A DNA stretch of 20,497 nucleotides from a virus. Shown here piece after piece: positions 2,682-20,497 of this stretch. A program made the position numbers and the translations under genes. Where the stretch lies: positions 1 through 20,497 of the IMG/VR virus record IMGVR_UViG_3300037189_012839, one strand, 5' to 3'. The notes under the pieces were generated by a model that did not search any database, had not been told where the DNA came from, and saw only the letters and a program-made list of their open reading frames with translations. The stretch's first letter is position 1. Each line of letters opens with the position of its first letter.

Positions 2682-3276
2682 CCTGCGTATATAGATCGTC
2701 TATAGTTTCATTATTGTCTAATACATGGTCAAACTCAGTGCCAACCCAAGCAGTTTCGCTAGCATGGACTCCATAACTAGATAATTTTTCCTTGAACATT
2801 TCCTTACCTTCGTTGGCATATTTGGCCACTTCATACCATTCGGGTTCCGCGCCACGAACTACACGAATAACAATGCCGCCTGCGGCTTTAATTGATTTGA
2901 TCTCATTAGGAAAACGGCAGTCGCTTATAACAATGTCGTCTCTGCTGTTGCGAAGTTTATTCTCTAAGCTGGCAATCCAAATATCGTCATGAAAACCTTT
3001 ACGGCAAACTTCTGTGCCCCAGTACTGTAGTACCCACCGTGGAGTTAAGTTAGGCATGTTTAAGCGTTCAGCCCACCACGGATCTATTTGTTCTCGCCAC
3101 TCTCGAGCCTGTTTAGTTCGACCCTCTAGCATCATGCGATCCCAACCAAATACTTGGGCAACAGCATCTTTTAAACTGTTGGCAAAACTTTCTCTTCGAA
3201 AACCATGGAAATTAGTAAGATAATCGGCAATAGTATCTTTGCCAGAACCGATAAAACCGCACACGCCTATAATCAT
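2596..3276 (-). CDS. 1: Deoxynucleoside monophosphate kinase, T4 gp1-like
   Basis: Phosphorylates dNMPs to dNDPs for phage DNA synthesis, with ATP as donor, in the cytoplasm. The N-terminus MIIGVCGFIGSGKDT holds the P-loop (GxxGSGKDT, residues 7-15, Lys13). Further family features are the LQYWGTEVCR segment, DIWIASLE, and the ISDCRFPNE strand (Asp in the Walker-B/LID area) followed by VIRVVRG. T4 gp1 is 241 aa; this one is 226 aa. It starts at the ATG 3276 behind AGGGGG and a strong sigma70-type promoter (3298-3326), so it is probably expressed early by host polymerase, unlike its structural neighbours. The last 28 codons and stop lie antisense to the HNH-like gene; the extreme C-terminal tail (LPLPYVEHAGNLHIPS) is thus an overprinted extension and may be dispensable. 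Confidence 0.9.
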   Translation of the reverse strand: MIIGVCGFIGSGKDTIADYLTNFHGFRRESFANSLKDAVAQVFGWDRMMLEGRTKQAREWREQIDPWWAERLNMPNLTPRWVLQYWGTEVCRKGFHDDIWIASLENKLRNSRDDIVISDCRFPNEIKSIKAAGGIVIRVVRGAEPEWYEVAKYANEGKEMFKEKLSSYGVHASETAWVGTEFDHVLDNNETIDDLYTQVKGLVQDPLGATLPLPYVEHAGNLHIPS

Positions 3277-5600: not shown

Positions 5601-7099
5601 TGCAATGGTTCTATGACGGGCAGATACGTAGATATCTTACCCAAACTATTAGAGTTTTCAGTAATTTTGTAGTCAAATACGGTGACGGTACTTTGGTACG
5701 TATACCAGTTATGTACGGTGATGCCGACAGACAGGTGGCTAGCATTATGAGAAATAACAGCGAAAACAAAATTAACTCTGTTCCTCGAATGTCGGTATAT
5801 GTTAGCGGATTAACCCCCGATGCAAGTCGTTTAAGCGATAGTACTTATGTAGGCAAACTACATTTTAGAGAGCGCGGGATTGATAATACCACTGGCGATT
5901 ATACCAACGGGCAAGGACGTAACTATACCGTTGAACGTCTAATGCCAACACCCTATAAACTAACCATGAAGTTAGATATTTGGTCTGCTAACACTGATCA
6001 GAAATTACAAATACTTGAACAAATTTTAGTCTTGTTTAATCCTACACTAGAATTACAAACAACCGACAACTACATTGATTGGACTAGTATAAGCACTCTC
6101 AATATAAATGATATTAATTGGTCTAGTAGGACAGTTCCTGTGGGGAATGATACTCCGATAGAAGTAGCGACCCTTACATTAGAAACACCGATATGGTTAA
6201 GTCCGCCGGTCAAAGTTAAACATCTCGGTGTTATTACTAAAATTGTTACCGGACTTTGGGGTAGTAAAGGAACAAATGAAACAGGATACATTGACGGTCT
6301 TGGTGCTGATTTGGCCGGTACTGGGGATTATACATTTTCAGATCAACTGGCATCTGTAGTTACTACAATAACTGATTACTCTTTACAAGTGTATAACGGC
6401 CAAGCTGTAGTTTTAGGTGCAACAGAAAATGTTGTACCGAGAGAACCTACATTGGATATTCCAACACGCATGGGCACTCCTATTGATTGGAATGATGTGT
6501 TTAATCGATATCCTGGAACGTACACTGCCGGATCAAGTAGATTATACCTTACACAACCAAATGGTAGTTATGTTGTTGGTACTGTTGCAATAAACCCCAC
6601 TGATTCAACTTTACTAGCAGTCTCTTGGGATCCGGATACATTAACGACTAACACCGGAATTGATAGCACAGCAAAATTAGATGTTGATCCTGGTTATAGT
6701 GCTGCCGGTAGTTATAGACCTAATAGTCCCGGAACATTCGATGCTATTATAAACCCTTTAACATTTAACCCAGGAACAGTTGTTGTTGGTACTAGATATC
6801 TTATTATAGATGATATTGGATCTTCTGTTAATTTAAAAGATAGCCAGTGGACTGGTACCCCTGGTACTGCTGCCGCTAATTATTCTCTTACTTGGGGTCC
6901 ATTAGTCGCACCTGCTAATAGCATTATAGAATACACCGGAACCGGTTGGAATACAATTTTTAATGCCGCCCAAGAAACCACTGTTATGGTCTGGCAAACT
7001 AATATATACACTGGAGTTCAATACAAATGGGACGGCGTGTCCTGGAGCAAGAGCTTTGAAGGTGAATATGAGCCAGGATCATGGAGACTAGAGTTATAG
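5600..7099 (+). CDS. 15: Tail terminator / sheath stabiliser, T4 gp15-like with C-terminal extension
   Basis: Caps the tail tube and sheath and docks the tail to the neck. Residues 1-215 follow T4 gp15 closely in pattern: FYDGQIRRYLTQ..RVFSNF (T4: FYNSSFRRYATL..DLFSNI), then RIPVMYGD, PRMSVYVSGL, PTPYKLTMKLDIWS, and LQILEQILVLFNPTLELQ (T4: FQIVEQILPYFQPHFN). T4 gp15 is 272 aa; this protein is 499 aa. The added residues from about 260 to 499 are repeat-like, with GTRYLIIDDIG, IIEYTGTGWN and the closing YKWDGVSWSKSFEGEYEPGSW, resembling Trp modules in the sheath gene of this window. AAGGCGGA at 5586-5593 supports the ATG at 5600. The last 19 bases overlap the Nudix gene. The core call is strong; the role of the extension is unknown. 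Confidence 0.85.
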   Translation: MQWFYDGQIRRYLTQTIRVFSNFVVKYGDGTLVRIPVMYGDADRQVASIMRNNSENKINSVPRMSVYVSGLTPDASRLSDSTYVGKLHFRERGIDNTTGDYTNGQGRNYTVERLMPTPYKLTMKLDIWSANTDQKLQILEQILVLFNPTLELQTTDNYIDWTSISTLNINDINWSSRTVPVGNDTPIEVATLTLETPIWLSPPVKVKHLGVITKIVTGLWGSKGTNETGYIDGLGADLAGTGDYTFSDQLASVVTTITDYSLQVYNGQAVVLGATENVVPREPTLDIPTRMGTPIDWNDVFNRYPGTYTAGSSRLYLTQPNGSYVVGTVAINPTDSTLLAVSWDPDTLTTNTGIDSTAKLDVDPGYSAAGSYRPNSPGTFDAIINPLTFNPGTVVVGTRYLIIDDIGSSVNLKDSQWTGTPGTAAANYSLTWGPLVAPANSIIEYTGTGWNTIFNAAQETTVMVWQTNIYTGVQYKWDGVSWSKSFEGEYEPGSWRLEL

Positions 7100-7530
7100 C
7101 AGATCAGATTATATGTAGTGGTGCGTTATTTTACGCTAAATCTACGCGACGAATATTGCTGTTGCAAAAAACAGACGGTAAACACAGTGGTACTTGGGGA
7201 CTTGTAGGCGGTACCAACAATCCTTCAGAGACACCGTGGCAGGGACTACAAAGAGAAATTACAGAAGAAATAGGTCTGTTGCCCGACATTAAAAAAGTAT
7301 TACCATTAGAAAAATTTACCAGCAACGATGCTGTATTTAATTTTCACACATATTTTTGTATAGTAGAAGAAGAATTTATTCCTTCTCTTAGTGCTGAGCA
7401 TTCTGCTTGGGGTTGGTTTTCTATGGGTCAACTGCCTAAACCTGTTCATCGTGGGCTTGACCTAAGTCTTCGAAATAAAATAATTCAAACTAAAATTCAA
7501 ACAATTATAGACCTTATAGATAGTCTATAA
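7081..7530 (+). CDS. Nudix hydrolase (MutT-like)
   Basis: A 149-aa Nudix-fold pyrophosphohydrolase, expected to cleave a nucleoside diphosphate linked to another moiety (X) with divalent metal. The Nudix box is complete and canonical at residues 44-66: Gly44, Glu50, then R58-E59-I-T-E62-E63-I-G65-L. The preceding strand LLLQK and WGLVGG, and the later WGWFSMGQLP, are typical MutT-family positions. Substrate cannot be read from sequence; T4 has NudE (ADP-ribose/Ap3A type), but this protein's substrate-specific region is different enough that I do not assign it. The ATG lies inside the 3' end of the gp15-like gene with AGGA at 7075-7078, so it is translated from the same late message as the neck and tail genes. 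A terminator follows immediately. Confidence 0.88.
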   Translation: METRVIADQIICSGALFYAKSTRRILLLQKTDGKHSGTWGLVGGTNNPSETPWQGLQREITEEIGLLPDIKKVLPLEKFTSNDAVFNFHTYFCIVEEEFIPSLSAEHSAWGWFSMGQLPKPVHRGLDLSLRNKIIQTKIQTIIDLIDSL

Positions 7531-7576: not shown

Positions 7577-10500
7577 TTAAGCCTGCGCTTCACCCCAACG
7601 CAGAACCAAGTTACTTAAAACTGGGTTACCTTGGGTTAGATAAACGTTAATCATAAGCACATCTGGACCGTTCGGGAATGTACCACGACCGCCTAATGGT
7701 GTTGATGTTAATTCTTTCAATGCTGATAGATCCAGACCGTCTTTGGAGCTTGGACTATTAATGAACGAAAATACTGTTTCACCAGGCGATGCATAAGTGT
7801 TACGACTAAATGATACTGTAGAGTTTAATGTGATTGCAGCCTGTAGTGGTTGATTCAATGTAACGCTGTACATTGACGCAGTCATATTGGTTGCTGAGCC
7901 AACTGTATTAGTTTGGTTTAGGACCCAGTTATTACCGGAACCGCTAACAATATATGTATTTGGTGCTACGCCAACTCCAAACACACCCATACCTATGATA
8001 ACAGTACCGCTAGCCAACGAGCTAATAGTTAATCCAGTACCACTAATAGTGGCAGTGAATGCGGCATTACTAGTATTAACTATGTTAGAAATTTTAGTTT
8101 GTCCCAGTACCCCGTTAGTAGTAGCCGGAAAAAATACGTCGTCATTAACTTGTACGCCTAAGATTGAACTAACAAATATTGCATTAGCACCCAAGCTGGC
8201 TGCTAAACTTACAAAAGGTTGATTAGTAGCAGAACCATCAAAAGTAATACTGGTACCAGCTGCCACTTGTGAGAAGCTTGGTTGTCCTGTTGGGATCACT
8301 GTTGAACTTAAACTGTTATAACTAATGTTGTTTACCGGTGTTGGGTAATTGCTTGGATTTAAAACTCCTTCAATTACCAATGCTGAGTTAGTATTACTTG
8401 TACCTCCAGCAGTAATCTCAATACCTTGTAGTAGGAACTGCGCACGGTTTAACAAGTCTCTAGTACCTAAGTCACCGGTTAACGCATTACTTACACTAGG
8501 TGCTAGACGAATAGCAAACGCAGTGGTTTTCTTAGTTGAAATGCTAACGTTTGGAGCTTGGTAGCTGAAAATGTATCCACGATCTGAATCAAAGCCACCG
8601 TCTTGTAGGAACGCCGCACCCCAGTGGCTGACGATTGGACTACATGTAGGAGCACAATGCAATACACCAGTTAATGGTTGGTGTGTTGCGGCTGGACCTG
8701 CGGTAAATGTTCTATAACCGCCAGCTGACCATTGAGTAGTACTTGTACCTCTTGTACAGCCAACGATAGCGGCAACAGTTAATAGCTGGGTAGGACTGGC
8801 TACCACTGTTGAAACAGTTACTTGTGGGGTCGACGATGAAATTGTTGAAACAGCCGCTAAGGTTAATTGTGTGCTCGATGGAATATTTAAAATCCAATAA
8901 GTTTTTCCACTGGAAATTCCGCCTAACACACTAGATGCTAATGGAAATGCAGTATTATTGATCGGCACTATTGGATGGCCTATGGCCATCAGTGTGGTGT
9001 TTGTTATAGTTACAACATCTAATGTACCAGTCAAGTTAGTTGAACTTACTGATTGGCTTGTACTCACAGTCCATGCAAGTCCTGATCCTGCTGTAATAAA
9101 GCAGTTACCAACAATGTTAGTACCAGTTACCAACATGCCTATAGCCCAAGTTCCTGTAATAGTTCCCGATAAACTTAATGTAGTTCCCGAAATACTAGCC
9201 GCATTACTTGTAGCCACTGAGTGTACAGTACCAGTAATAGTAGCTTCGTGTTCGCCGGTATATGTAATAATTTCATTGTCAACATATACCTGTCCAGCCG
9301 CTGGAATCAATGTTCCGTCAGCTACTGGAATTACTGTATCAGTTGTACCGATCGTTTGATCTCCAACAATGGTTGTTTTACCGCCTTCGGTTTGTACTTC
9401 ATAACGCACTGGCATGTTACCAGTACGCATCCATGCTTCATTATTCACGTTGTTATTACGTAAACGATGTACAGTTACATATTTGCCGTTAGGGCCTCTA
9501 AACATAAAGTCAATAAATCCAGCACCGTACCATGTCCATTGCATACCCACCATCTGCATTCTAGTTGGGTTGATGCTATATCCGCTTGGGTTGAACGGAC
9601 TGCTTGTGCCGTCGAAACGGTCTAGATTCCAACGCTGTTGTGGAATTACATAGTCGATAGTTTTGGTCATTTTAATACCGCTGGCATTGACAGCACTTCT
9701 AAATCCAGGATTAACATATAATAGTGTATCATGAATAATATTAGTGACCACATGAGTCATACCGCGGATTACCACGCGGTCGCCAGCAGCCAGCTGATTA
9801 GTAAATCGCGAATTTATGCCGATAACCGTGTTGCCGCCTGCATTGATGCTGACCGTGCCGGCTAATTGGAACGTACTGGCACGCTTTACTGCTGATATAA
9901 ATTGTCCATCATATTGTAAAAATACGCCGTTTTGTTCATCAAATGTACCGGTACGCACAGTTGCGCCTTTCCAGAATAATACGCTAAGTAGGCAAGGATC
10001 AGTAATAACAGGATTTACAGAACCAAGTGTTTGAGTAGCAACTACTGTTAATACACGTTCGTCGATAATACCAGTAACTGTATAATTTCCATTGTAGCCT
10101 AATGTTACTATACCACTTAGATTAATAACACAGCCAATTTGACATCCATGGTCTACGTCATCGCAAGAAATAGTGATTGTTGATCCCACTGTTGTTCCTG
10201 ATGCAACAACTGATCGAACGAAATAGTTTGGTGCAAATAGCGCACCGGTGTTAAAGTTAATAGCTTTACCAGACTGATAGCGGATATATTTTTTACTTTG
10301 ACGTGTTGCTTGGCCGCCGTACGCTGGTGATCCTGTGCCTAATTGCACACCGCCGTCAAGCGGTCTATGCGTATAGAAACTATCCGGACGAGCATATACC
10401 GTGCCTAGCAATGTTGTGCCTCCAGTTAATGCTCCAGTTTGTCTAGCCGTGTAGGTAAATGTTGTTAGACTAGGTACTCCTTCAACAAAGAACGGACCGT

Positions 10501-12427
10501 TTGCCAGTGTATGATTGTTTGTTCCGTTATCGCTGGTAATTTGCACGTTAACTGTTCCACCTGGCAATAGACCGTGTGGGCTGGCTGAGGTTACTGTAAT
10601 GGTGCTAAATCCAGAATATGCATTTATTGCGGTACCGCTAGCAATATAAGCACTAGATGTACTGACTGTGTATGTTCCAGTTCCGCCTGAGCCTGTACCT
10701 AGAGCAATAATAGTCGTACCTGAAGGAACACCTGTGCCACTAATGCCTTGACCAATGGCTAATGCTCCGCTGGTAACGTTACTAACGTTTAAAATATTTC
10801 CTGCGGCACCAGAGCCGTTGCTTAATGTAGCTGTTACTGCGGCACTTACTACCGGTGTTGAGAAACTAAATGCTACACTGCTAACTGCTTGAACTCCCAA
10901 GTAGCCAGTGGCTGTAGTCAATGCTACTGTTCCACCTGCCACTACCGTCATATTACCAAATGCTGATGTTACACTAAGTACACTACCAGCAACGCCGTTA
11001 GAAATGCTTGTTGATACGGTAATGGTATTACTGTTAATAATCTGCACAACATAATATTGTGTACTTGTATTTAGACCACCAAATGCCGAACCAGCAAACA
11101 CAATTGGTTCGTTGGCTGTCATGTTTACAGTAGTTCCAACTGTAATATAGTTTGAACCTGAGTATACGGCTGTGGCTGTTGTTGTTACTGTGATGTTAGG
11201 GCTAATTGTAATAACTGTACCGCTAACAATTGACTGAATATAATACTGTGTACCACTTACTATACCACCAAAACTGGCTCCGCCAGTGATATACATATTT
11301 CCACCTGATGCAGTAACCGTAGGAGTAAAGACTGGAGTCAATGAAGGACTAATACTCATAGTAATAGTCTTAGTGTCAATAATGCTGGCTACATAGTATG
11401 TTGTACCAGTAACCACGTTACCAAATGTCAAACCAGTGGTAGCTAACGGCATACCAACTGCCATACCTAGCGTAGTACCAACTGTAATCTGTTGATTAGT
11501 GTTAATACCGGTGATATTTGTTCTTACCTGTGCAAATGTGATAGGACTGTTTACAGTCATACCAGTAGTTGATGCAACTGTTACATAGTTGCTTGTGACT
11601 GCTGTGGCTGTACAAGCTGTGTTGATTGTACTAGACACGTTAGCATTGGCATAAAATCCGCCTTTACGTATTTGTAAAAATGTAGTCCAAATGCTGTCGC
11701 CAGCATTGAAACCTACTTTGCCTTTGGCAATGAATCTAAAAGTTGTTAGGGATGGCACATCATAAACAATAAATGTACCTTCAGCACGATCAAATCCTGT
11801 AATAGCGGCATCCATGCCGCGAACAGTAATTGGGGTGCCGGTAATTAAACCATGTGCTGTTGCTGTAGTAATAGTAATATAACTTTCTGCTGTTGCTAAT
11901 CCACCACCTGCTAAACTAGCATCGGTTGTGGCAGCGGTTGTAACAAAATCAGTACCCGGAATTTCATAAATGTTAGGATAGCCACGCTGTAAACTTACAG
12001 TTAACCACTTAGTTGGTTGTAATCCATACTCAAAGTCAGCGTCAAGCATGGATGTAGGTGGAGATACGCGAGTACGTTCAAACGCATCAGTACCGACTTC
12101 AGGCATACGAACAATTTGTTCTGGATTTTCATAAAATATTTGGATTGTATCGCCGGCCAACTGTGCTGATGTATCTATGCTTAATCTAATAGTAGTAACA
12201 CCGTCGGTATTATCTAGTGTTGTAACAAAGTTAAGATCGTTTGCTCTTGAAAATGTTACTATAGTACCCGCATAGGTAATATCTGCAAAATTGTAAAGGA
12301 TTACATTTCGTGTGGTGTTGGTTATAATTAATAACTGTTGCAGATCAATCTTACCTGGTACCGAAATGGTCCCATTGCCGGCTGTGCCCGGTGTAAAAAC
12401 ATACTGTCTAAGCTGACTTTTGGCCAT
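7577..12427 (-). CDS. Giant virion structural protein (baseplate/fibre type), 1616 aa
   Basis: I recognise the N-terminus (MAKSQLRQYVFTPGTAGNGT) and a central core (NLDRFDGTSSPFNPSGYS..RMQMVGMQWTWYGAGFIDF, residues 934-975, then NNNVNNEAWMRTGNMPVRYE) from large structural proteins of marine T4-like phages, likely baseplate-wedge or tail-associated; the exact T4 counterpart is uncertain (gp7-like is possible). The core is interrupted by Thr/Ser/Gly-rich beta modules of at least four types: TYYV modules (residues 278-358, 363-409, 413-474, 1137-1192), SGTGV modules (531-601, 1070-1135, 1453-1519), HGL..VPSLTTF modules (181-238, 604-665) and one VTGxxSxF-type module (851-923). No signal peptide or membrane segment is seen. 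A late promoter (12455-12462) and GGAGAAATAA before the ATG support the start. It ends at a shared terminator. Likely outward-facing and host-contacting, by inference. Confidence 0.85.
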   Translation of the reverse strand: MAKSQLRQYVFTPGTAGNGTISVPGKIDLQQLLIITNTTRNVILYNFADITYAGTIVTFSRANDLNFVTTLDNTDGVTTIRLSIDTSAQLAGDTIQIFYENPEQIVRMPEVGTDAFERTRVSPPTSMLDADFEYGLQPTKWLTVSLQRGYPNIYEIPGTDFVTTAATTDASLAGGGLATAESYITITTATAHGLITGTPITVRGMDAAITGFDRAEGTFIVYDVPSLTTFRFIAKGKVGFNAGDSIWTTFLQIRKGGFYANANVSSTINTACTATAVTSNYVTVASTTGMTVNSPITFAQVRTNITGINTNQQITVGTTLGMAVGMPLATTGLTFGNVVTGTTYYVASIIDTKTITMSISPSLTPVFTPTVTASGGNMYITGGASFGGIVSGTQYYIQSIVSGTVITISPNITVTTTATAVYSGSNYITVGTTVNMTANEPIVFAGSAFGGLNTSTQYYVVQIINSNTITVSTSISNGVAGSVLSVTSAFGNMTVVAGGTVALTTATGYLGVQAVSSVAFSFSTPVVSAAVTATLSNGSGAAGNILNVSNVTSGALAIGQGISGTGVPSGTTIIALGTGSGGTGTYTVSTSSAYIASGTAINAYSGFSTITVTSASPHGLLPGGTVNVQITSDNGTNNHTLANGPFFVEGVPSLTTFTYTARQTGALTGGTTLLGTVYARPDSFYTHRPLDGGVQLGTGSPAYGGQATRQSKKYIRYQSGKAINFNTGALFAPNYFVRSVVASGTTVGSTITISCDDVDHGCQIGCVINLSGIVTLGYNGNYTVTGIIDERVLTVVATQTLGSVNPVITDPCLLSVLFWKGATVRTGTFDEQNGVFLQYDGQFISAVKRASTFQLAGTVSINAGGNTVIGINSRFTNQLAAGDRVVIRGMTHVVTNIIHDTLLYVNPGFRSAVNASGIKMTKTIDYVIPQQRWNLDRFDGTSSPFNPSGYSINPTRMQMVGMQWTWYGAGFIDFMFRGPNGKYVTVHRLRNNNVNNEAWMRTGNMPVRYEVQTEGGKTTIVGDQTIGTTDTVIPVADGTLIPAAGQVYVDNEIITYTGEHEATITGTVHSVATSNAASISGTTLSLSGTITGTWAIGMLVTGTNIVGNCFITAGSGLAWTVSTSQSVSSTNLTGTLDVVTITNTTLMAIGHPIVPINNTAFPLASSVLGGISSGKTYWILNIPSSTQLTLAAVSTISSSTPQVTVSTVVASPTQLLTVAAIVGCTRGTSTTQWSAGGYRTFTAGPAATHQPLTGVLHCAPTCSPIVSHWGAAFLQDGGFDSDRGYIFSYQAPNVSISTKKTTAFAIRLAPSVSNALTGDLGTRDLLNRAQFLLQGIEITAGGTSNTNSALVIEGVLNPSNYPTPVNNISYNSLSSTVIPTGQPSFSQVAAGTSITFDGSATNQPFVSLAASLGANAIFVSSILGVQVNDDVFFPATTNGVLGQTKISNIVNTSNAAFTATISGTGLTISSLASGTVIIGMGVFGVGVAPNTYIVSGSGNNWVLNQTNTVGSATNMTASMYSVTLNQPLQAAITLNSTVSFSRNTYASPGETVFSFINSPSSKDGLDLSALKELTSTPLGGRGTFPNGPDVLMINVYLTQGNPVLSNLVLRWGEAQA
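7871..8071 (-). repeat. SGTGV-type module, copy 3
   Basis: Residues 1453-1519: ISGTGLTISSLASGTVIIG, VFGVGVAPNTYIVSGSG, WVLNQTNTV. It sits close to the C-terminal conserved end of the giant protein and matches copies 1 and 2 in motif order and length. Confidence 0.65.
8852..9019 (-). repeat. Fourth, distant TYYV-type module
   Basis: Residues 1137-1192 of the giant protein (VVTITNTTLMAIGHPI ... GKTYWILNIPSSTQLTLA) match the three tandem modules at 11006-11596 in order and spacing of motifs, with YW replacing YY. It directly follows an SGTGV-type module, so two module types are inserted side by side here. Confidence 0.65.
9023..9220 (-). repeat. SGTGV-type module, copy 2
   Basis: Residues 1070-1135: ISGTTLSLSGTITGTWAIG, LVTGTNIVGNCFITAGSG, WTVSTSQ. 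It has diverged from copy 1 (TGTNI for SGTGV) but keeps the order TxxxAIGxxxxG, then xTxxxxG, then WTVSTSQ-type strand. Confidence 0.65.
10625..10837 (-). repeat. SGTGV-type module, copy 1
   Basis: Residues 531-601 of the giant protein: LNVSNVTSGALAIGQ, ISGTGVPSGTTIIALGTG, TYTVSTS. The same G-x-G-V-x-x-x-T-x-I core recurs at 9023-9220, 7871-8071 and, in a different gene, at 19661-19855. Confidence 0.7.
11006..11596 (-). repeat. Three TYYV-type beta modules in tandem in the giant protein
   Basis: Residues 278-358, 363-409 and 413-474 each end with a G-T-x-Y-Y-x-x-x-x-I motif followed by x-T-I-T-x-S: GTTYYVASII/KTITMS, GTQYYIQSIV/TVITIS, STQYYVVQII/NTITVS. Preceding residues (SNYVTVAST, SNYITVGTT) also match between copies. 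A fourth copy (GKTYWILNI) lies at 8852-9019. Module of unknown function seen repeatedly in phage tail proteins. Confidence 0.75.
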
Positions 12428-12496: not shown

Positions 12497-13225
12497 TCAC
12501 TGACCCATGGCAAAAAATGCCTGCATCCACCCTGTTGTTTCCATGTATCGTTTTGTAGCTACTTGTGTTCTACTTGTGTTCCATTTTTCATCGTTAGCTG
12601 TTAAGGTTACGGTGAGAAATCGTCCTGCAGCCGCTACATTTTGCCCAATATTTACGTTGTCAATACTGCCTAAGCGTGTTGGCTGGATGGTTAGTTGTGC
12701 TCCATCCGTTGGAGTTATCGTAACGCTTTGATTACCAAGTACTGTAATATGTCCCAGAAAATTTGTAGTTTGTGTTGCTGTGCCTAGGGTAAGTGTTCCC
12801 ACCGGGCTAAGTGTTAAAGTTCCGCTAGGCGCAATAGTTGTTGGCCCCGTGACTGACAAGCTGGAAAAACGACCGGCTGCCGGAGCAGTAGCACCAATAG
12901 ATATATTATCCATTGTTCCAGTAGTTGTTGGTGCAATATTGACTACAGCACCTGCGCCGGTGACGCTTAGATTTCCAGTTAGGGTAGTCGGGCCGCTGAC
13001 TTTAAGACCTGTTAATGTTCCTGCTATATTGGTAACTGTACTGCCTAGTGTAGTTTGAGATAATAATGATTGTCCAGCATAACTAAGATAGGATCCCTGT
13101 GTTAGTTCAAGTCGGCTACCTGTTACTGTGATAGTTTGGCTGATTAAATTGCCGTCAACATCAACAACAAAATATGGGCTTTCAAAGCCGTGTGTAGATC
13201 TTAGTTGTTTCTTGGCCACTGTCAT
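12497..13225 (-). CDS. Repeat-bearing virion protein C (third of three paralogues)
   Basis: A 242-aa Thr/Gly/Ala-rich beta-type protein without catalytic motifs. Residues 94-128 (IAPTTTGTMDNISIGA..PAAGRFSSLSVTG) and 176-209 (GAQLTIQPTRLGSIDNVNIG..AAAGRF) are two copies of a roughly 33-residue motif also found twice in each of the two upstream genes. The C-terminus has VATKRYMETTGW, an ATKxY ending also seen in the middle gene. Its start codon overlaps the stop of the upstream gene (ATGA, 13222-13225), so it is translationally coupled. Probably a tail or fibre/baseplate-associated structural component of the same late transcript; no T4 counterpart is recognised. Confidence 0.75.
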   Translation of the reverse strand: MTVAKKQLRSTHGFESPYFVVDVDGNLISQTITVTGSRLELTQGSYLSYAGQSLLSQTTLGSTVTNIAGTLTGLKVSGPTTLTGNLSVTGAGAVVNIAPTTTGTMDNISIGATAPAAGRFSSLSVTGPTTIAPSGTLTLSPVGTLTLGTATQTTNFLGHITVLGNQSVTITPTDGAQLTIQPTRLGSIDNVNIGQNVAAAGRFLTVTLTANDEKWNTSRTQVATKRYMETTGWMQAFFAMGQ

Positions 13226-14070
13226 GATAATGCTACTCCATAGGCTGCTGAAAGTGCTGCCACGTATCCTTTTGTAACCGCACTGTTAATTGTGTTGGGC
13301 TGAGTGGTTGTTAAGGTAATACTGCTGAAAGAACCAGCGACCGGAGTAGTAGCACCAATAATAACATTGTCAATGTTGCCAGTGACTGCCGGATTAACCA
13401 CTAGTGTTCCTGTGCCAGTTGGGCTGATAGTTATGTTAGCATTTGCTGGACTTAATGTTACTGCGCCGGTTGTTGCCAGTGTACTGAACACGCCAGTTGA
13501 CGGCGTAGTGGCACCAATCGTTATGTTATCTAAAGTGCTAGGTGTAGTTGGATTGATATTTAAACTAGATGTAACTGTAAAATTTGCTACAGAAAAACTT
13601 TGACTACTTAGATTAAATGTAAGTGTGTTAGTTGAAGTATTTGTGGCAATAGTTAAACCACCTTGACCCTGCACATTTAGCGTATTGTTTGTGGCAGTAA
13701 GCGCAATCGTTCCTTGCCCAGGTACCGCTATATAGGAATATCCATTCATTTATATTGCTCCAAGTAAAAGTCTACCATTAATCTGTGCTAATGAGACCAG
13801 TTGAGAATTATTAGTAGTCGGTTGTGTCACTGTTATACTAGTGAAACGGGCCGATCTAGGGGTGGTAGCACCAAATCTAACGTTGTTAATTCGTCCGGCT
13901 GTAACAGGATTAATAGTAACTGTACCGGTACCTGTTGGTGCCAGGCTAACAACCGCATTAGGTGATGATAATGCGACTGCGCCTGTACTGGAAATTGTAG
14001 TAAAACGTCCGCCTGCAGGTACGATTGAACCAATTTGAACATTATTAATGCTTGACGATTGAGTTAGTGT
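12599..14070 (-). repeat. Six copies of an IDNVxIG..P..GRF motif across three genes
   Basis: Each of the three adjacent genes ends with two copies of a motif of the form I/L-x-N-V/I-x-I-G-x-x-x-P-x-x-G-x-F-x-x-I/L. The copies lie at 13822-14070 (gene A), 13306-13563 (gene B) and 12599-12946 (gene C). Spacing between paired copies is about 50 residues in A and B and about 80 in C, where extra sequence is inserted. The DNA is also recognisably similar (a GTAGTAGCACCAAT-like stretch recurs), so these arose by duplication. Confidence 0.8.
13222..13749 (-). CDS. Repeat-bearing virion protein B (second of three paralogues)
   Basis: A 175-aa Thr/Asn-rich beta-type protein. Residues 63-98 (NINPTTPSTLDNITIGATTP..GVFSTLATTG) and 116-148 (VVNPAVTGNIDNVIIGATTP..GSFSSI) are the two clearest copies of the shared motif, and the C-terminus has AVTKGYVAALSAAYG. 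It is essentially the repeat-bearing half of its neighbours without their N-terminal domains. It begins on the base after the stop of the upstream gene and overlaps the downstream gene by four bases, so all three are one operon. Function is inferred as structural only; no enzyme motif is seen. Confidence 0.72.
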   Translation of the reverse strand: MNGYSYIAVPGQGTIALTATNNTLNVQGQGGLTIATNTSTNTLTFNLSSQSFSVANFTVTSSLNINPTTPSTLDNITIGATTPSTGVFSTLATTGAVTLSPANANITISPTGTGTLVVNPAVTGNIDNVIIGATTPVAGSFSSITLTTTQPNTINSAVTKGYVAALSAAYGVALS

Positions 14071-14793
14071 TGCTGTTACTGATCCAGTAACAGTTAAATT
14101 TGGAATATTAGTCAGTGCAAAAGTTAAACTGTCAATGCCGGGAGTAGGAACAGTAGTAATTGCTAGATTGCCATCTGTGTTTTGTATGTTTATTGTGTCA
14201 AGAATAAACTTAGAATTGAGAGTATTGGTGGAGTTAACAATAACAGTTTTAATATTACTAATAGTCATACCACCGTCATCAGACACTTGTCCAAATCCGT
14301 CGTCAATGTTAGTATTTCGCCAATTAAGACCAAATCCCATAGCGCCGCCTGCGCTGGTAGTTTCGCCAGTGGTTGTCGGAACACTGATTGCAGTTAGTCT
14401 TTCAGCATAGGTGGCTTTGTATGTTAAGCGTACTCCTACCAATGCTGTTACAGCATCGGCTTGGTAATAGGGGCTGGCAATAACTGAAACAAACGAATTA
14501 TCTACCGTAGCTGTAAATTTTACTAGATCTCTGCCTAGATTTGTACGACCAAATGCTGTGATACTGGCTTGGCCTGGTCTTGCTGAAACTGTTACTCTCA
14601 GGGTTTCTACGTCATCATTTCCGTATTCTACTGCTATTTCATATTCTGCACTGGAAAAATTACCCACTGCCCACTTGTCTATAACCGTGTTAGGTTGTAC
14701 CGGAATTACTTCGCCTTTATAGGAAAAATTAGCCCGATTTTTAAACTTTAGGGTATTGCCCAGTCCGTTTGTAAAGTAGTCAAGAAAGTTCAT
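13750..14793 (-). CDS. Virion structural protein A (first of three paralogues)
   Basis: A 347-aa protein with a distinct N-terminal domain (MNFLDYFTNGLGNTLKF to about residue 135), a type I recall from structural proteins of marine T4-like phages. A Thr/Asn-rich region follows, then the shared repeat at residues 242-271 (SSSINNVQIGSIVPAGGRFTTI) and 293-324 (INPVTAGRINNVRFGATTP). It heads a three-gene operon behind a late promoter (14814-14821). GGTGAT is a modest Shine-Dalgarno before the ATG at 14793. The N-terminal domain may anchor the protein to the particle and the C-terminal repeats may pack against proteins B and C; that is inference. Confidence 0.78.
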   Translation of the reverse strand: MNFLDYFTNGLGNTLKFKNRANFSYKGEVIPVQPNTVIDKWAVGNFSSAEYEIAVEYGNDDVETLRVTVSARPGQASITAFGRTNLGRDLVKFTATVDNSFVSVIASPYYQADAVTALVGVRLTYKATYAERLTAISVPTTTGETTSAGGAMGFGLNWRNTNIDDGFGQVSDDGGMTISNIKTVIVNSTNTLNSKFILDTINIQNTDGNLAITTVPTPGIDSLTFALTNIPNLTVTGSVTATLTQSSSINNVQIGSIVPAGGRFTTISSTGAVALSSPNAVVSLAPTGTGTVTINPVTAGRINNVRFGATTPRSARFTSITVTQPTTNNSQLVSLAQINGRLLLGAI

Positions 14794-14892: not shown

Positions 14893-15528
14893 ATGAATTT
14901 AAGAAATTTACTAGAAGAAGACGAAATTAATTTAGGCGATGTTTCGCGTTATTCTGTAAAATCAGCGGTTAGTGCGTATACTAAACCGGTTATTGGCCTG
15001 TCTAGAGATGTGCTGATAAAAGCTCGACCTGACCATGTTAAAAATCCATCTGAAGTTGATCCAATTGTTGATGCTCTTAAAGCCGTGGCTCTTATACGAA
15101 GTAAGGGTTATAAGATTGTGATTTTCTCCAATCAATACGGAATTGGCGAAAGAAAACTTAGCCAAGTTGACGTTGATGTAGTACATCAGCATCTATTAAA
15201 ACTACTAGGTGAAGCGGGTTGTATGACCATTGAAGGATTATACTACTCTACAACTAAATTAAAAGAAGACATCTACGCATTGCCAAATATAGGCATGCTT
15301 CAACGTGCCGAGAAAGAGACAAAGGTCAAATTTAGCGAAGGATGGTTTGTTGGGGATAAAATAAGTGATCTAAAAGCCGCCCAAACTAGTAAGGCTAAAC
15401 CTATATTGATTAAATCGATGGATGGAGAAGAAGCCTTAAAGAAATTAGGTTCTTTTGCCAATCAAGATTTAAAGCGAAAAGTAACTGTTTTTGAAACACT
15501 TTTAGAATTTGCAGAAAGTTTAGAATAA
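14893..15528 (+). CDS. HAD-superfamily phosphatase-like protein with altered catalytic motifs
   Basis: A 211-aa protein with the layout of histidinol-phosphate/GmhB-type HAD phosphatases. Strand one and motif I lie at VIGLSRDVLI (33-42). A helix ALKAVALIRSKGYKIV leads to motif II FSNQYGIG (78-85, like the family's TNQSGIG), then a long helix, and motif IV FVGDKISDLKAAQ (152-164, Asp155 and Asp159). The motif I nucleophile Asp (DRDG in relatives) appears as Ser37, leaving Asp39. The family's KPxPGM loop reads LPNIGML, and the Cys residues that bind zinc in GmhB are absent. It may therefore be catalytically inactive or changed in activity. The first 30 residues are an extra leader beginning MNLRNLLEEDE. 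It has its own sigma70-like promoter and a terminator shared with the carbamoyltransferase operon. Substrate unknown. Confidence 0.7.
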   Translation: MNLRNLLEEDEINLGDVSRYSVKSAVSAYTKPVIGLSRDVLIKARPDHVKNPSEVDPIVDALKAVALIRSKGYKIVIFSNQYGIGERKLSQVDVDVVHQHLLKLLGEAGCMTIEGLYYSTTKLKEDIYALPNIGMLQRAEKETKVKFSEGWFVGDKISDLKAAQTSKAKPILIKSMDGEEALKKLGSFANQDLKRKVTVFETLLEFAESLE

Positions 15529-15555: not shown

Positions 15556-17355
15556 TTACTCTTGATTAGCTACTTTAATCAATTTGCCGTATTCTGGCAG
15601 ATACAAATATTCAACTTCACTCTTAACCAAAGTTTCTACAGCATCTTCTAATGTTTCAACTAGAGGATCACCACCTAGGTTAAAGCTAGTATTAAAGATA
15701 ATAGGACAACCTGTTTTATCTTTAAAGGTTTTGATCAAATCATAATAGTGTTTATTTTGTTTAGCTGTTACTGTTTGTATACGGCAAGTGCCATCAACGT
15801 GGATAATTGCTGGAATCTTTTCTTCAATTCCAGGTTGGCAATTTACAGCATACATCATAGTAGGACTGCTAGGCATTCCACGTAGATCAAACCACTTGTG
15901 TACATCTTCTTCTAGTATTGATCCTGCAAAGGGACGGAAATATTCCCGACGCTTGACTTCGTTAACAAAATCTTTGCCGTCTTTAAATCGTGGATCAAAT
16001 AAGAAGCTACGATTACCCAAAGCACGTGGCCCATTTTCTGATCGGCCTTGAAATAGTGCAACAATATTTTTATTGATCAATAATTCTACAACATCTGAGT
16101 GTTTAGCATCAGTTAATTCGCCGCCCACTTCATCGACTAACGATTGAATATTTTCGCTAGTATATGAGTATGATGGTCCAAGATATAGCGTGTCAGCACG
16201 GTCAAACTTGGTATCATCTTGTGTTAACGATCTATAGAACATTAGTGCGGCGCCCATAGCAGTTCCAGCATCGTTGCTAACTGGTTCAACATACAGTTCA
16301 ATACCGTCATCTTTTAGTGCTTCAAGATAGTGATAGTTGGCCACGCAATTTAATCCGTATCCGCCACTTAATACTACTTTATTAGTGCCAGTATCTTTAA
16401 CTGCTTTACGAATTAGCTTAACCACTTGATCCTGGGTTTGTGTTTGACAAGCATAGGCAAGATCTCTACGATTTTGTAATTTTGTTACATCTGAACTAGT
16501 GGTATCAGCTAGTTCATCAAAGAAACCAGCATTAACAATAGCACCATTTGGGTAATTAGGAATAATCACGTTCCTATCAGATACTGGATATCTGCCGCTA
16601 TCTACAAACAATGGAGGAATTTTATCGTTGGGCTTACCGTATGGAAATAGTCCCATGGTTTTTCCTGCTTCGATCGAACTAAATCCACAATATTCTGTTA
16701 CTGCCTCGTATACTTTGGTAATTCCTGCATGGTCGTCAATAACACACTCGTGTACACCTTCTTCACCATAGAACTGACTGGTCATTGCTTTATCATACAG
16801 TGCAGGAGTTGGCCCACGCAAACCGATGTGTTTGAATACTGTATTGAAATTAGCAGGATATTCGCAGGTATATATTGTTTCTACTTCCCATCCAGTAACC
16901 GGATCATTACCAACATTTAATGGGATAAATGTTCCGGCGCCGTCAACTACCACCGCTACTGCTGTGTCAAACCCTGAACGATAAAATGCGCAGGCGGCGT
17001 GTAATTTATGATGTACATAACTTAAATCAATAACTTGCGGATGTTGATAGATATTGTCTTTTCTATTGATCAATCCTAACTTTCGAGCCAGACCAGTGTA
17101 TACGTCATCGCCGGTAAAATCAACTCTGCCGGCAGTTTCTTTTAGTGGCTGTGTATGCGCAATCACTAGATAGTCAAGACGATTAGTATATTCTAAAATC
17201 TTAACCATTGCGGCATACGGGCCTCCATCATATTTTTGGCGACTAATACGTTCTTCTTCGATGCTGAAAATTATTTCGCCATCTTTAAGTAGACATACTC
17301 CTGCATTGTGGCCGCGAGCTATTGCGGCTATCCATACTGAATTATCTTTTTTCAT
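15556..17355 (-). CDS. O-carbamoyltransferase, NodU/CmcH/TobZ family
   Basis: Transfers a carbamoyl group from carbamoyl phosphate, via an adenylated intermediate, to a hydroxyl of an acceptor. The 599-aa length fits the family. The N-terminal metal/ASKHA-like domain shows GHNAG (15-19), EEERISRQKY (33-42), YVHHKLHAACA (113-123, His115/116/119), DGAGT (138-142), GKTMGLFPYG (231-240), SGGYGLNCVAN (330-340) and SNDAGTAMGAA (360-370). The C-terminal YrdC-like domain shows GRSENGPRALGNRS (437-450), REYFRPFA (470-477) and NTSFNLGGDP (555-564). All key family motifs look intact. It starts immediately after the stop of the GT9-like gene (GTA-TAA-ATG), with AAGGAAC as Shine-Dalgarno. Known acceptors in the family include sugars of Nod factors and antibiotics and LPS heptose, and I recall a phage member acting on 5-hydroxymethylcytosine in DNA. 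The acceptor here is unknown. Confidence 0.92.
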   Translation of the reverse strand: MKKDNSVWIAAIARGHNAGVCLLKDGEIIFSIEEERISRQKYDGGPYAAMVKILEYTNRLDYLVIAHTQPLKETAGRVDFTGDDVYTGLARKLGLINRKDNIYQHPQVIDLSYVHHKLHAACAFYRSGFDTAVAVVVDGAGTFIPLNVGNDPVTGWEVETIYTCEYPANFNTVFKHIGLRGPTPALYDKAMTSQFYGEEGVHECVIDDHAGITKVYEAVTEYCGFSSIEAGKTMGLFPYGKPNDKIPPLFVDSGRYPVSDRNVIIPNYPNGAIVNAGFFDELADTTSSDVTKLQNRRDLAYACQTQTQDQVVKLIRKAVKDTGTNKVVLSGGYGLNCVANYHYLEALKDDGIELYVEPVSNDAGTAMGAALMFYRSLTQDDTKFDRADTLYLGPSYSYTSENIQSLVDEVGGELTDAKHSDVVELLINKNIVALFQGRSENGPRALGNRSFLFDPRFKDGKDFVNEVKRREYFRPFAGSILEEDVHKWFDLRGMPSSPTMMYAVNCQPGIEEKIPAIIHVDGTCRIQTVTAKQNKHYYDLIKTFKDKTGCPIIFNTSFNLGGDPLVETLEDAVETLVKSEVEYLYLPEYGKLIKVANQE

Positions 17356-18471
17356 TTATACTTGTTCCTTTTTGGGTGCGATCGGTAGCTTTGGTCTCGT
17401 TACAGCCGGCATAACTGACGATACAGCTGATGGTTGTGTCTGAAACTCATGGGTATGTGGTTGTTGTGGATTTCCGCCTGCTGGCGATGCAACAGTTCCA
17501 CTAATCTTTGGTAATGTTGGGGACATAGGCTTAGTATAATACTTTTCGACCAGTGTGTCAACCGATTTAACGATAACATCTTCAATTTTTTCGTTCATAA
17601 TCATGATGCCATCATTGGTTCTATCAGAATCTTCATCGGGGCAAATTCTAATCGGACTATACTTGCGTAGCCCTTCACCCATGTCTAAAATATCAAACTT
17701 TTCGTATTCTGGATATGATACATTAACTGCAAATGTTGAACCTAATACCACAGTGGCTGTTCTGTTTAATGAATATGCAATATGTTGGCCTACACTATCA
17801 CATCCTAAAAAATGATCGCAAGCGGCAATAATTCCAGCCCATTGGCGAATATGAATTTGTTGTGGTTGTGCCACCATGCCGGCACCTTCTGCTTCAAAGT
17901 TCATTTGAAATTCAGCCATTAATATCACGGCATAATTTTTTTGTAATTTTTTAACAATATTAACCACGTTTTTATAATCAAAACTGCGACCACTGCTGTC
18001 GTACACTACTTCGTTATTAACTGTAACTCCTCGACCGTATGGTTGAAATACCACCACTTTATCTTTGCCAGTTTTTTGTCTAACTTCATTAATAGTTAAC
18101 TGTCCTTGGATTAGTTCTTCTGTCGACAATTTAATTTTTGGTTTTTGTAAATCCCTAAGTCCTTTATTGTTAATATCAATATCAAAAGCCTGTGCTAGAC
18201 TGGCCTGCTGATTATAGTATTCCCAAACACGATAGGGTTCTGGGGTTTTAACATCCATATTTACTAGGCGTTCTCTAAATAGATTTTTATGCCATACATC
18301 ATAAACTCTATGATACAATTTTGGATGGCCTTTATAAAAGTCTGTGCCTGCTTCGCATACGATTAAAAAATCTTCGTTTGGGTTATCTTCGGCGTATTTC
18401 TCCAGCGCCGGAATTGAGCATATCACGCGGCCAGCGCCACCATTGATAAAAAAAGCTGAGGGTCGTTTCAT
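17356..18471 (-). CDS. GT9-like (heptosyltransferase-type) glycosyltransferase
   Basis: A GT-B-fold glycosyltransferase resembling ADP-heptose:LPS heptosyltransferases. From the chosen start MKRPSAFF there are 371 aa. The glycine-rich loop NGGAGRVICSIPALEKY (10-26) matches the family's GD-LL-T-P-L motif region. FQPYGRG (142-148) begins the C-terminal nucleotide-binding domain. WAGIIAACDHFLGCDSVGQH (211-230), followed by IAYSL and VVLGST, matches the family's LAxLIxxADLxVGNDTGxxHLAxALG. Residues 313-371 are a Pro/Gln/Ser/Thr-rich tail not expected in GT9 enzymes. The frame opens at an upstream ATG (18489), but AAGGAC (18475-18480) sits correctly only for 18471. A perfect late promoter is at 18507-18514, and the carbamoyltransferase gene follows with no gap. 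Donor and acceptor are unknown. Confidence 0.8.
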   Translation of the reverse strand: MKRPSAFFINGGAGRVICSIPALEKYAEDNPNEDFLIVCEAGTDFYKGHPKLYHRVYDVWHKNLFRERLVNMDVKTPEPYRVWEYYNQQASLAQAFDIDINNKGLRDLQKPKIKLSTEELIQGQLTINEVRQKTGKDKVVVFQPYGRGVTVNNEVVYDSSGRSFDYKNVVNIVKKLQKNYAVILMAEFQMNFEAEGAGMVAQPQQIHIRQWAGIIAACDHFLGCDSVGQHIAYSLNRTATVVLGSTFAVNVSYPEYEKFDILDMGEGLRKYSPIRICPDEDSDRTNDGIMIMNEKIEDVIVKSVDTLVEKYYTKPMSPTLPKISGTVASPAGGNPQQPHTHEFQTQPSAVSSVMPAVTRPKLPIAPKKEQV

Positions 18472-18506
18472 AATGTCCTTTATGTACACAGTTAATGATT
18501 GTGAGA

Positions 18507-18575: not shown

Positions 18576-19307
18576 TTAGTCTTTATGATCTGACGGATTT
18601 GGTTCGTCTGGTTTTTGTGTCGGATCAGCTGGCGGAGTTGGCAGCGGTTCTGCACGTGGATCATTTGGGAATGGAATTTGCCATGGGTCTAAATGTCCGT
18701 GTGTTTCTGGGATTGCTTCCATTTCTTTAATCACGGCTTCAATGGCTTTACGCATTTCTGGTGAATAGTCATTAAATTCGTCAGCTAAATCTCGCTTGTA
18801 TCCTTCAATCACGTTTAGGCGAGCCTGATCGTGTTGTTCTGCGTTAATATGCGGTTTCTTAAATGGAAACGGTCTATTCCAAGATTTAGTTTCAAGATTA
18901 TAAGTAATTTCTTCAACTTGGTATGTATGATCCGGATATGTAGGATCAGGACGAGCATAATGTACAGTTCCATCGGCTAATTTATATTCTTTTACTGTAT
19001 AAGTATCTGGATGTAAATCAACATAGAAACTAGCAACCACTGGCTCATCTTTTGCATCAATTAATACTGCAACAAAGTTTTGTCCAGCTTTAGCTTGGGC
19101 TGTTGCTTCTGAGACTTTTGGATCTCTAGGTTCGACTTCAACGTAACCGTAGTTATATTGTATTTTACCAGTTTCCTTATTTACTAAGATCCAAATTTGT
19201 TCTGGACCTTCATAGATACCTTTAGCTTTTAGGCCTAAAGTAGCCTGGTCACTCAGATATTCATCTGGTAAGTCGTATTCGAATTCAAATTTTATTTTTT
19301 TTGGCAC
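18576..19307 (-). CDS. Acidic, Pro-rich protein of unknown function downstream of a fibre gene
   Basis: A 243-aa protein I do not recognise with confidence. Residues 1-60 are basic then acidic with aromatic strands (KIKFEFEYDLP, IWILVNKETGKIQYNYGYVE). The middle has strands with repeated Tyr/Asp/Pro (ARPDPTYPDHTYQVEEITYNL) and SWNRPFPFKKPH, and residues 155-205 form charged helices. The last 30 residues are Pro/Asp/Glu-rich (PLPTPPADPTQKPDEPNPSD). No signal peptide, membrane segment or catalytic motif is visible. It starts at GTG (19307) with GGAGAAA upstream, 14 bases after the stop of the Cys-rich virion protein, so it is in the same message. Position after a fibre-type gene and small size allow a fibre-associated or chaperone role, but nothing in the sequence proves it. 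Confidence 0.7.
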   Translation of the reverse strand: MPKKIKFEFEYDLPDEYLSDQATLGLKAKGIYEGPEQIWILVNKETGKIQYNYGYVEVEPRDPKVSEATAQAKAGQNFVAVLIDAKDEPVVASFYVDLHPDTYTVKEYKLADGTVHYARPDPTYPDHTYQVEEITYNLETKSWNRPFPFKKPHINAEQHDQARLNVIEGYKRDLADEFNDYSPEMRKAIEAVIKEMEAIPETHGHLDPWQIPFPNDPRAEPLPTPPADPTQKPDEPNPSDHKD

Positions 19308-19321
19308 TTTTATTTCTCCGA

Positions 19322-20497
19322 TTATCTGTAAGTTATTTTAATCATTCCTGGGCGACCTGGCATTCCTTGGGCACAACCTTGGCCAGTTACATAGTGCGTA
19401 ACGCCCCCGATGCCCGGAACATACTGCGAATTTTGAGTCGACCAACCGATATAGCTAGCTGCCACACAATATGGTGTATCTGCGTAACCAGAACCTGTAA
19501 TACCCATTACCGTAACACCACCACACTGGTTAACTAAACCAGCTGGGAATGGTATGAAATGTTTATTCCAGCAAGCGTTATCACAGCAAATATGATAGTA
19601 GCATCCTTTAACTCCCTGGATATTTATGTCTCCGCCGTAGGCGTTAGGTAATAATGGTGCTGTACCGGTTATTGCGGTAGCTGTAGTTGTTTGTGTTCTG
19701 TCCACAGTCCAAGTAGTGGTGTTTGTGCAACCAATAATAGTTGTACCAGCAGTAACACCAGTTCCGGTTAATACATAGTTTAAACCAAATGATCCTGTAA
19801 CTGTTCCGCCTGCTGTAAATGTAGTTCCACTAATTATGCCGGCTGTTGCTGATGCAGTTGCCGCACCTGAACCGCCTGGGCTACATGTGCAATATGAAAA
19901 ACAGCAAGCTGGATTACAATATGAGCATCCGCCGTAGCCGCCTTCTGCACAGAAGTTATTCAAGCAGTATGGAGCGCCGTAACTGACACAATATAGTGCA
20001 TTGTTGCTGTTGGTTGCTGTGGCCGCTTGGCTCAGTGTGGCCGCAAAACCATAGATCGGAGCAGGACCCCATGTAAAGTTTTGGTTAATACCCCACTGTG
20101 AACCTACACCAGTACCGGTAATGTTACAGCAAATATAAGTGTTACCACTGAAACATGCTCCACCGCCACCTACGTTAGGTGCGGCTGGCATAGCTGACCA
20201 TAGGCACATGCCTACTACTGGGGTTCCGCTACATAGCAGTGCTCCAGTATAAAATACCTGTCCGCTAATACAACCTTGTGGTGCTAGCATACAATTAACT
20301 GCGGTAATAGTTGTTGATCCAGGAATACCTGTACCTTGGACTGTTGCGCCTACCATACCTATAGTATTCATAGATGTGCCAAATACAAACTGACGATTAT
20401 CAGCATTGGTTGTTGCACAAGTTGTTCCGCAAACGTTTAATATCGGTCCTATTACTGAAGTAGTGCTACCTCTTTGGCCTGTACTACCGCAAGCACA
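19322..20497 (-). CDS. Cysteine-rich virion/fibre-type protein (N-terminus beyond window)
   Basis: The minus-strand frame is open from 20497 to the stop at 19322; the first 42 codons upstream of the internal ATG at 20371 are also open, so the true start lies outside. The 391 visible residues contain about 28 Cys, clustered in the 48 residues encoded at 19877-20020 (CAEGGYGGCSYCNPACC, CTCSPGG) and again at GCYYHICCDNACW. Glycine runs (VGGGGACF) and the ending GRPGMIKITYR resemble Gly/Cys-rich structural proteins of marine T4-like phages. An SGTGV-type beta module (19661-19855) sits between the Cys clusters. There is no export signal in the visible part. Probably an exposed, possibly metal- or disulfide-stabilised, virion protein; the role is inference. 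Confidence 0.8.
   Translation of the reverse strand, partial: CACGSTGQRGSTTSVIGPILNVCGTTCATTNADNRQFVFGTSMNTIGMVGATVQGTGIPGSTTITAVNCMLAPQGCISGQVFYTGALLCSGTPVVGMCLWSAMPAAPNVGGGGACFSGNTYICCNITGTGVGSQWGINQNFTWGPAPIYGFAATLSQAATATNSNNALYCVSYGAPYCLNNFCAEGGYGGCSYCNPACCFSYCTCSPGGSGAATASATAGIISGTTFTAGGTVTGSFGLNYVLTGTGVTAGTTIIGCTNTTTWTVDRTQTTTATAITGTAPLLPNAYGGDINIQGVKGCYYHICCDNACWNKHFIPFPAGLVNQCGGVTVMGITGSGYADTPYCVAASYIGWSTQNSQYVPGIGGVTHYVTGQGCAQGMPGRPGMIKITYR
19661..19855 (-). repeat. SGTGV-type module inside the Cys-rich protein
   Basis: ISGTTFTAGGTVTGSFG, VLTGTGVTAGTTIIGCTN and TWTVDRTQT match, in order, the three SGTGV modules of the giant protein more than 7 kb away (compare ISGTGVPSGTTIIALGTG). 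The DNA also resembles copy 1 around the GTTII core. A second, partial echo (QGTGIPGSTTITAV) lies at about 20290-20340. Confidence 0.65.

Follow-up and report, generated by a model that had tools for sequence, protein, structure and literature searches.

A cysteine-rich, triplet-encoded phage protein family as the probable receptor-binding tip of myovirus tail fibres

What would a phage structural protein do with an extreme number of cysteines? The question is raised by an open reading frame (ORF) at one end of the window, by which we mean the whole stretch of 20,497 nucleotides analysed here (IMG/VR virus record IMGVR_UViG_3300037189_012839):

19322-20497, minus strand: Cys-rich ORF, the C-terminal 391 residues of a predicted adhesin subunit of about 500 aa (phrog_4205 match, 8e-13; placed by alignment and tree)

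The stop codon of this ORF is at 19322-19324 and the frame stays open up to the contig end. Its 5' end lies beyond the contig, the whole record being exactly 20,497 bases. The closest relative found (L060:7988-9451, IMG/VR 3300037189_001544) is 71% identical to the window ORF in the alignment and is complete, with 488 aa and 46 Cys. Residue 1 of the window ORF aligns to residue 109 of this protein, so the ATG inside the window ORF at 20371 is an unlikely start.

The window ORF has 28 Cys in 391 residues (7.2%) and 16.6% Gly. The preliminary description gave the same count, and it holds. The window ORFs with a structural PHROG match (747, 260, 479 and 499 aa) contain no Cys, nor do three presumed fibre-like ORFs without PHROG match (242, 175 and 347 aa), and a 1616-aa ORF contains 9; across these other structural or presumed structural ORFs, Cys amounts to 0-0.6%. 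The richness is shared by the whole family, which has a mean of 29.9 Cys per protein; in the 257 proteins of 88 complete gene arrays Cys makes up 6.8-12.7% (median 10.0). These figures describe a non-independent sample, as relatives were gathered by similarity to Cys-rich members.

That base composition, misassembly or a wrong frame produced the Cys content has a vanishingly small probability. From its own codon-position base composition, the window ORF would be expected to have 14.7 +/- 3.2 Cys, so that composition alone predicts about 15; however, 28 are seen, 25 of the 28 are kept in the L060 relative at 71% identity, and 254 distinct relatives have a similar content. A chance, compositional or wrong-frame origin was ruled out on these grounds. 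Also against it are the other cyanophage matches to the Pfam domain Gly_rich_2 (PF21722), which have only 0-1.8% Cys (8 loci read of 19 PF21722 places, with L102 left out and L092 and L097 set aside as members of the Cys-rich family). These include S-SM1 (0/350), syn9 (2/266 and 7/392) and P-SSM2 (2/485), as well as the S-CAM3 Gly_rich_2 place (L101), which is below the Pfam cut-off and has 3 Cys in 533 residues. S-SM1 has no match to the Cys-rich family. Since these other Gly_rich_2 matches are Cys-poor, it is the Cys-rich family that the Cys mark, rather than the fold.

The window ORF matches PHROG 4205 over residues 111-390. Members of this PHROG are SXBG_00224 to 00226 of S-CAM1 (match at 5.8e-98), gp156-158 of S-CAM3 and SSSM7_114-116 of S-SSM7. 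To survey the family, we kept 78 loci from 241 matching stretches and examined 65 of the 78; a second survey kept 80 loci from at least 150 matches, of which 73 new ones were examined. Arrays were defined by a Cys content of at least 5.5%, Gly above 10%, a length of at least 120 aa and 1.2 kb margins. When each distinct protein set is counted once, 81 of 88 complete arrays have three Cys-rich genes and seven have two (L004, P-SSM2, L071, L144, L150, L154 and L167); array size is less exposed than Cys content to the bias of similarity searching, and loci near the threshold for "distinct" may be close kin. The feature is real, conserved and widespread. From its place on the family tree, the Cys-rich ORF is predicted to be the third gene of such a triplet; only this cut gene is visible in the window, and the other two are presumably present in the window's virus. 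It should also be noted that one incomplete locus, L152, has five Cys-rich ORFs by the array criteria, and that three relatives (L192, L193 and L194) are on contigs of metagenome-assembled genomes labelled Flavobacteriales, Actinomycetota and Rhodobacteraceae, perhaps as binned phage fragments. These three contigs came from a genome-contig search with a family alignment; the same kind of search with L060 returned nothing, and locus searches that started from the window protein alone or from the phrog_9740 protein yielded no relatives.

Three genes on the same strand follow the Cys-rich ORF in the window:

18576-19307, minus strand: phrog_9740 protein, constant neighbour of the array
17356-18489, minus strand: phrog_8954 protein, weakly glycosyltransferase-9-like (Pfam E 0.095, below cut-off)
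15556-17355, minus strand: carbamoyltransferase (PF16861, 6.9e-58)

A phrog_9740-type gene is beside or inside the array in all 88 cases and directly after it in 82, as judged with an 11-row profile in which all rows but one came from the window or kin of surveyed loci. In S-CAM1, SXBG_00223 is the phrog_9740-like protein. Where the contig leaves room, a phrog_8954-like gene accompanies 81 of 85 arrays and a carbamoyltransferase gene 68 of 72. The phrog_9740 protein is a candidate assembly chaperone or adaptor. A profile search against the PDB found no recognisable relative of known structure for it; the best matches (down to 2.6e-7) were designed repeat proteins, with single repeats scoring only 4-5 bits, and were discounted along with the others. 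Genes with a tail-fibre annotation or match are found upstream of the family genes, and in L060 and L144 two small genes upstream of the array match tail-fibre PHROGs.

The fold was approached through relatives of the window ORF. PF21722 has no match in the window fragment at E 0.1, and the fragment is without the N-terminal WxVP..FEIWGGGG part that is present in the aligned relatives. The third-position orthologues of S-CAM1 (SXBG_00224, 40.4 bits) and S-CAM3 (gp156, 33.9 bits) exceed the cut-off of 24.3 bits; the second-position paralogues of the same phages stay below it (16.0 and 19.3 bits) and the first-position paralogues have no match. Among eight further members, two pass, three fall below and three lack a match. 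An AlphaFold2 model of the L007 protein, identical to that of S-CAM1 (73 aligned rows; pLDDT 79.0, pTM 0.79), has as its best PDB match the Pam3 fibre protein gp24 (7ypx; Z 18.3, rmsd 2.9, 196 residues), followed by the Bxb1 tail tip (Z 14.2) and the glycine-rich domains of ALK/LTK (Z 7.9-9.3). The L060 model has a lower pLDDT of 59.9, higher in the core and mostly under 50 in its inserts, and its core likewise matches 7ypx (Z 17.8, rmsd 2.9, 193 residues). Both models are of relatives, not of the window fragment. A search of the family profile against PDB sequences gave a single match, enoyl-CoA hydratase at E 0.8. The modelled fold of the relatives, which is that of a trimeric fibre protein, and the gene order give good support to the earlier assignment as a phage structural protein. 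Among phage adhesins of the known TNF-like/glycine-rich kind, the family is a variant that is rich in Cys and encoded in triplets. Searches of openly accessible main texts on cyanophage Cys-rich, disulfide and tail-fibre proteins found no description of the Cys-rich triplet, and the accessible part of the S-CREM2 virion proteome report does not mention cysteine (PMC10665884).

We give a probability of about 0.6 to the reading that the Cys-rich ORF is a subunit, the third of three paralogues, of a fibre tip that binds the receptor, carries a cysteine cap and is probably a heterotrimer. Three tandem paralogous genes would encode the tip with which the tail fibre of a myovirus binds its receptor, and each subunit would combine a TNF-like beta-sandwich with a glycine-rich loop domain and, at its N-terminus, a short segment for attachment, like Pam3 gp24. 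The three paralogues would most likely form one heterotrimer, and the phrog_9740 product would help to assemble it. The seven arrays with two genes speak against this reading. It is possible, though somewhat unlikely, that the paralogues instead form three separate homotrimers, giving one phage tips of different receptor specificity. Such an arrangement would agree with the best fold match, since Pam3 gp24 is described as a homotrimer (PMC9608196), and with the divergence of the paralogues, first- and second-position proteins being 26-37% identical to L007 (25 rows at the end of the alignment). However, free-standing adhesins would be expected to vary more in number, and three recurs in 81 of 88 arrays and also in trios that formed separately.

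The separate trios were found in a maximum-likelihood tree of 26 triplet loci, one per cluster, plus the window. The window ORF clusters with third-position genes, first that of L060 (100/99) and then those of L059 and L058, and the second-position genes of 15 loci form a single clade (98/97). Some trios form clades of their own, namely L078 (100/99), L062/L066 (99/95) and L063/L064/L068/L072 (95/86). Position labels are clustered on the tree, with 12 label changes compared to 37.3 after shuffling, and every label changes at least 5 times on supported branches. Since each label needs this many supported changes, the triplets must have been re-made or homogenised more than once, yet there are still three genes.

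Five of the cysteines in the window ORF are Cys in nearly all of 35 relatives:

19949-19951, minus strand: codon of Cys183, Cys in 33/35 relatives
19916-19918, minus strand: codon of Cys194, Cys in 35/35 relatives
19586-19588, minus strand: codon of Cys304, Cys in 31/31 relatives with a residue there (of 35)
19571-19573, minus strand: codon of Cys309, Cys in 33/35 relatives
19373-19375, minus strand: codon of Cys375, Cys in 32/35 relatives

In an alignment of 79 rows covering all triplet positions and numbered by S-CAM1, Cys exceeds 90% at positions 153, 164, 183 and 277, reaches 85-90% at 90, 91, 92 and 209, and is found in 86% and 82% of rows at 47 and 204. The window ORF has Leu in the column of S-CAM1 Cys183, which is Cys in 92% of family rows, and the conserved CCC is within the N-terminal part missing from the window fragment. 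Along the chain, the CCC comes right after the first Gly run and Cys277 lies between the last two Gly motifs. By analogy with Pam3, the CCC and Cys277 would sit at the outer ends of the central loops, which places the most conserved Cys (the CCC after the first Gly-rich stretch and the Cys near the last) towards the far ends of the Gly-rich loops. Cross-links between them probably form a cystine-rich cap after lysis into oxygenated water, and such a cap would keep the variable, receptor-contacting loops in shape. Hardening of the virion by Cys is possible.

Most Cys columns of the family are variable. The tree gave no sign that two such columns are gained or lost together (181 same-direction co-changes vs 240 expected), no column pair of 703 reached p<0.001, and nine control residues behaved like Cys in the same test. 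Even Cys totals are not in excess (42 even and 36 odd among 78 proteins). Strict disulfide pairs are thus unsupported, there being neither pairwise co-change nor an excess of even totals. The residues that replace Cys above background are Tyr, Arg, His, Phe, Gln, Asn, Asp and Lys, and those below background are Gly and Ala.

Motif statistics bear on whether the Cys bind zinc, iron or copper as a cluster in the fibre tip, an idea that we regard as unlikely. The many CC and CxC pairs noted earlier in the window ORF turned out to be at shuffle level (3 CC, 2 CxC and 1 CxxC against a shuffle mean of 1.9 each; P 0.30, 0.59 and 0.87). Across the family (141 thinned proteins out of 254 distinct, compared with shuffles), CC occurs 750 times vs 406 expected (z 18), and CxC and CxxxC are slightly in excess (z 2.8 and 3.2). 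A metal cluster would fit the strong over-representation of CCC (182 vs 39 expected, z 22), the small set of near-invariant columns, the lack of paired Cys gain or loss, and HxH motifs, of which 33 are found vs 16 expected (z 4.3) in 28 of the 141 proteins. However, CxxC, the usual motif of zinc and iron-sulfur sites, has no excess (381 vs 404 expected, z -1.3), most Cys columns vary, and the window ORF has 3 His and no HxH. With no HxH in the window ORF and nothing else in its favour, the preliminary proposal of an iron-binding tail that exploits siderophore receptors found no support and was rejected.

It is also improbable that the Cys are mostly free thiols engaged in host contact, for example in thiol exchange or redox-dependent adsorption. 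Against it, free thiols oxidise in seawater, and S-PM2, a Synechococcus cyanomyovirus known to adsorb light-dependently, has no phrog_4205 match. What such a role would explain is the exchange of Cys columns with the residues listed above, as contact residues would do, and light-dependent adsorption has been reported for some marine cyanomyoviruses (PMC2984593). As a side observation, a glutaredoxin gene (L083:17827-18075) and a second gene labelled cysteine dioxygenase (L083:14578-14934), which may be a generic cupin label, lie downstream of the Cys-rich genes in P-SSM2 (L083); they may or may not bear on thiol chemistry.

The window member of the family differs from most relatives in two insertions, and a stretch similar to one of them occurs elsewhere in the window:

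19970-20446, minus strand: insert A, residues about 18-176, absent from 34/35 aligned relatives and present in L060
19634-19882, minus strand: insert B, residues about 206-288, a repeat module of fibre type that L059 and L060 share
9014-9220, minus strand: insert-B-like stretch, residues 1070-1138 of the 1616-aa ORF at 7577-12427 (E 3.4e-4)

The third-position protein of L058 has neither insert. It looks as if the loops of one lineage grew step by step through the addition of repeat modules from fibres.

The window's virus can be placed by a gene at the other end of the contig:

1-2241, minus strand: tail sheath, cut by the contig end, with best matches in jumbo phages and not in T4-like ones; it marks the virus lineage

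This sheath matches Atu_ph07 and Phosso at 37% over 77-78% (among 15 of 60 matching records), and cassette-bearing contigs with relatives of the window-type sheath reach 363,943 bases. We compared sheath types in 24 cassette records, which were hand-picked from the loci and include the near-duplicates L060/L061, L002/L007 and L144/L145: 14 have the window type, 8 the T4 type (PF04984), none both and 2 neither. On the adhesin tree, S-CAM1 and L041 (T4-type) share a clade with L058-L060 (window-type), and S-SSM7 and L067 (T4-type) share one with L078 (window-type). As both sheath types interleave in this way, the cassette has probably moved between lineages. A Photo_RC gene (psbA/psbD) was found in 6 of the 24 records, all of them T4-type, and none was found in the 14 records with a window-type sheath, most of which are fragments. 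The window's virus may thus have a host other than a cyanobacterium.

Several other parts of the window were recorded by eye or by annotation. By eye, repeats of the form NI..GxxxPxxGxFxS/T recur in all three adjacent Cys-free ORFs at 12497-14793 (minus strand; 242, 175 and 347 aa). A 111-aa ORF at 2346-2681 (plus strand) has 9 Cys, several of which stand, again by eye, in zinc-finger-like CxxC pairs; it has no Pfam match above cut-off and overlaps, on the opposite strand, the 3' end of a dNMP-kinase-like ORF (2596-3276, minus strand). Two plus-strand genes stand among the structural genes, encoding a HAD/PNK3P-like phosphatase (14893-15528) and a NUDIX hydrolase (7081-7530).

Receptor-binding proteins determine which bacteria a phage kills, and to our knowledge those of most marine phages have not been identified. 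With Cys richness, genes in threes and the partner gene as sequence marks, candidate host-range genes could be found in uncultured myoviruses, and isolates that carry the cassette exist (S-CAM1, S-CAM3 and S-SSM7). The occurrence of the cassette in two tail lineages suggests a modular transfer of host recognition. A trimeric tip would have about 90 Cys and be made in a reducing cytoplasm, which raises the question of when it is oxidised or loaded with metal. More tentatively, and at somewhat less than even odds, the family may represent a new class of adhesin: a heterotrimer of three co-encoded paralogues with a redox-active cystine or metal-thiolate cap, which would be assembled reduced in the cytoplasm and lock on release into seawater, and whose cassette, together with the genes for its assembly partner and for sugar modification, would pass between T4-like cyanophages and phages with jumbo-type tails.

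Among known systems, a metal has been proposed at the HxH fibres T4 gp37 and that of alterophage R22Y, and HxH has been discussed as an iron motif of phage fibres (PMC11705849), whereas the motif is absent from the window ORF and present in only the minority of thinned family members counted above. The tip adhesins of the T2-type gp38 group (S16, PP01) have a glycine-rich stem and variable outer loops at the fibre tip (PMC12892980), as the family would; gp38 differs in capping the tip of a gp37 trimer and in its beta-helix domain. The S16 gp38 / PGII sandwich fold is not among the fold matches listed for the models, which excludes nothing. The extracellular TNF-like glycine-rich domain of ALK/LTK resembles the models at Z 7.9-9.6, but it belongs to a eukaryotic receptor and is related at fold level only. 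Pam3 gp24 (7ypx, 7yfw) shares its TNF-like and glycine-rich fold with both modelled family members. It is encoded by a single gene and forms a homotrimer, whereas the Cys-rich family occurs mostly in threes; the main text of the gp24 paper does not mention cysteine (PMC9608196), in contrast to a family content of at least 6.8%, and the two modelled Cys-rich members have only short N-terminal helices, unlike gp24. A fibre of the Pam3 type also has a dedicated chaperone, made of a beta domain and a helical domain; the phrog_9740-type gene present at all 88 arrays is a candidate counterpart. PHROG 4205 itself belongs to the same sequence family, has the same Cys content, and lies in loci with the same order of phrog_9740-like, phrog_8954-like and carbamoyltransferase genes. 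From its named members, the window member differs by its two inserts and by its setting in a virus with a jumbo-type tail sheath.
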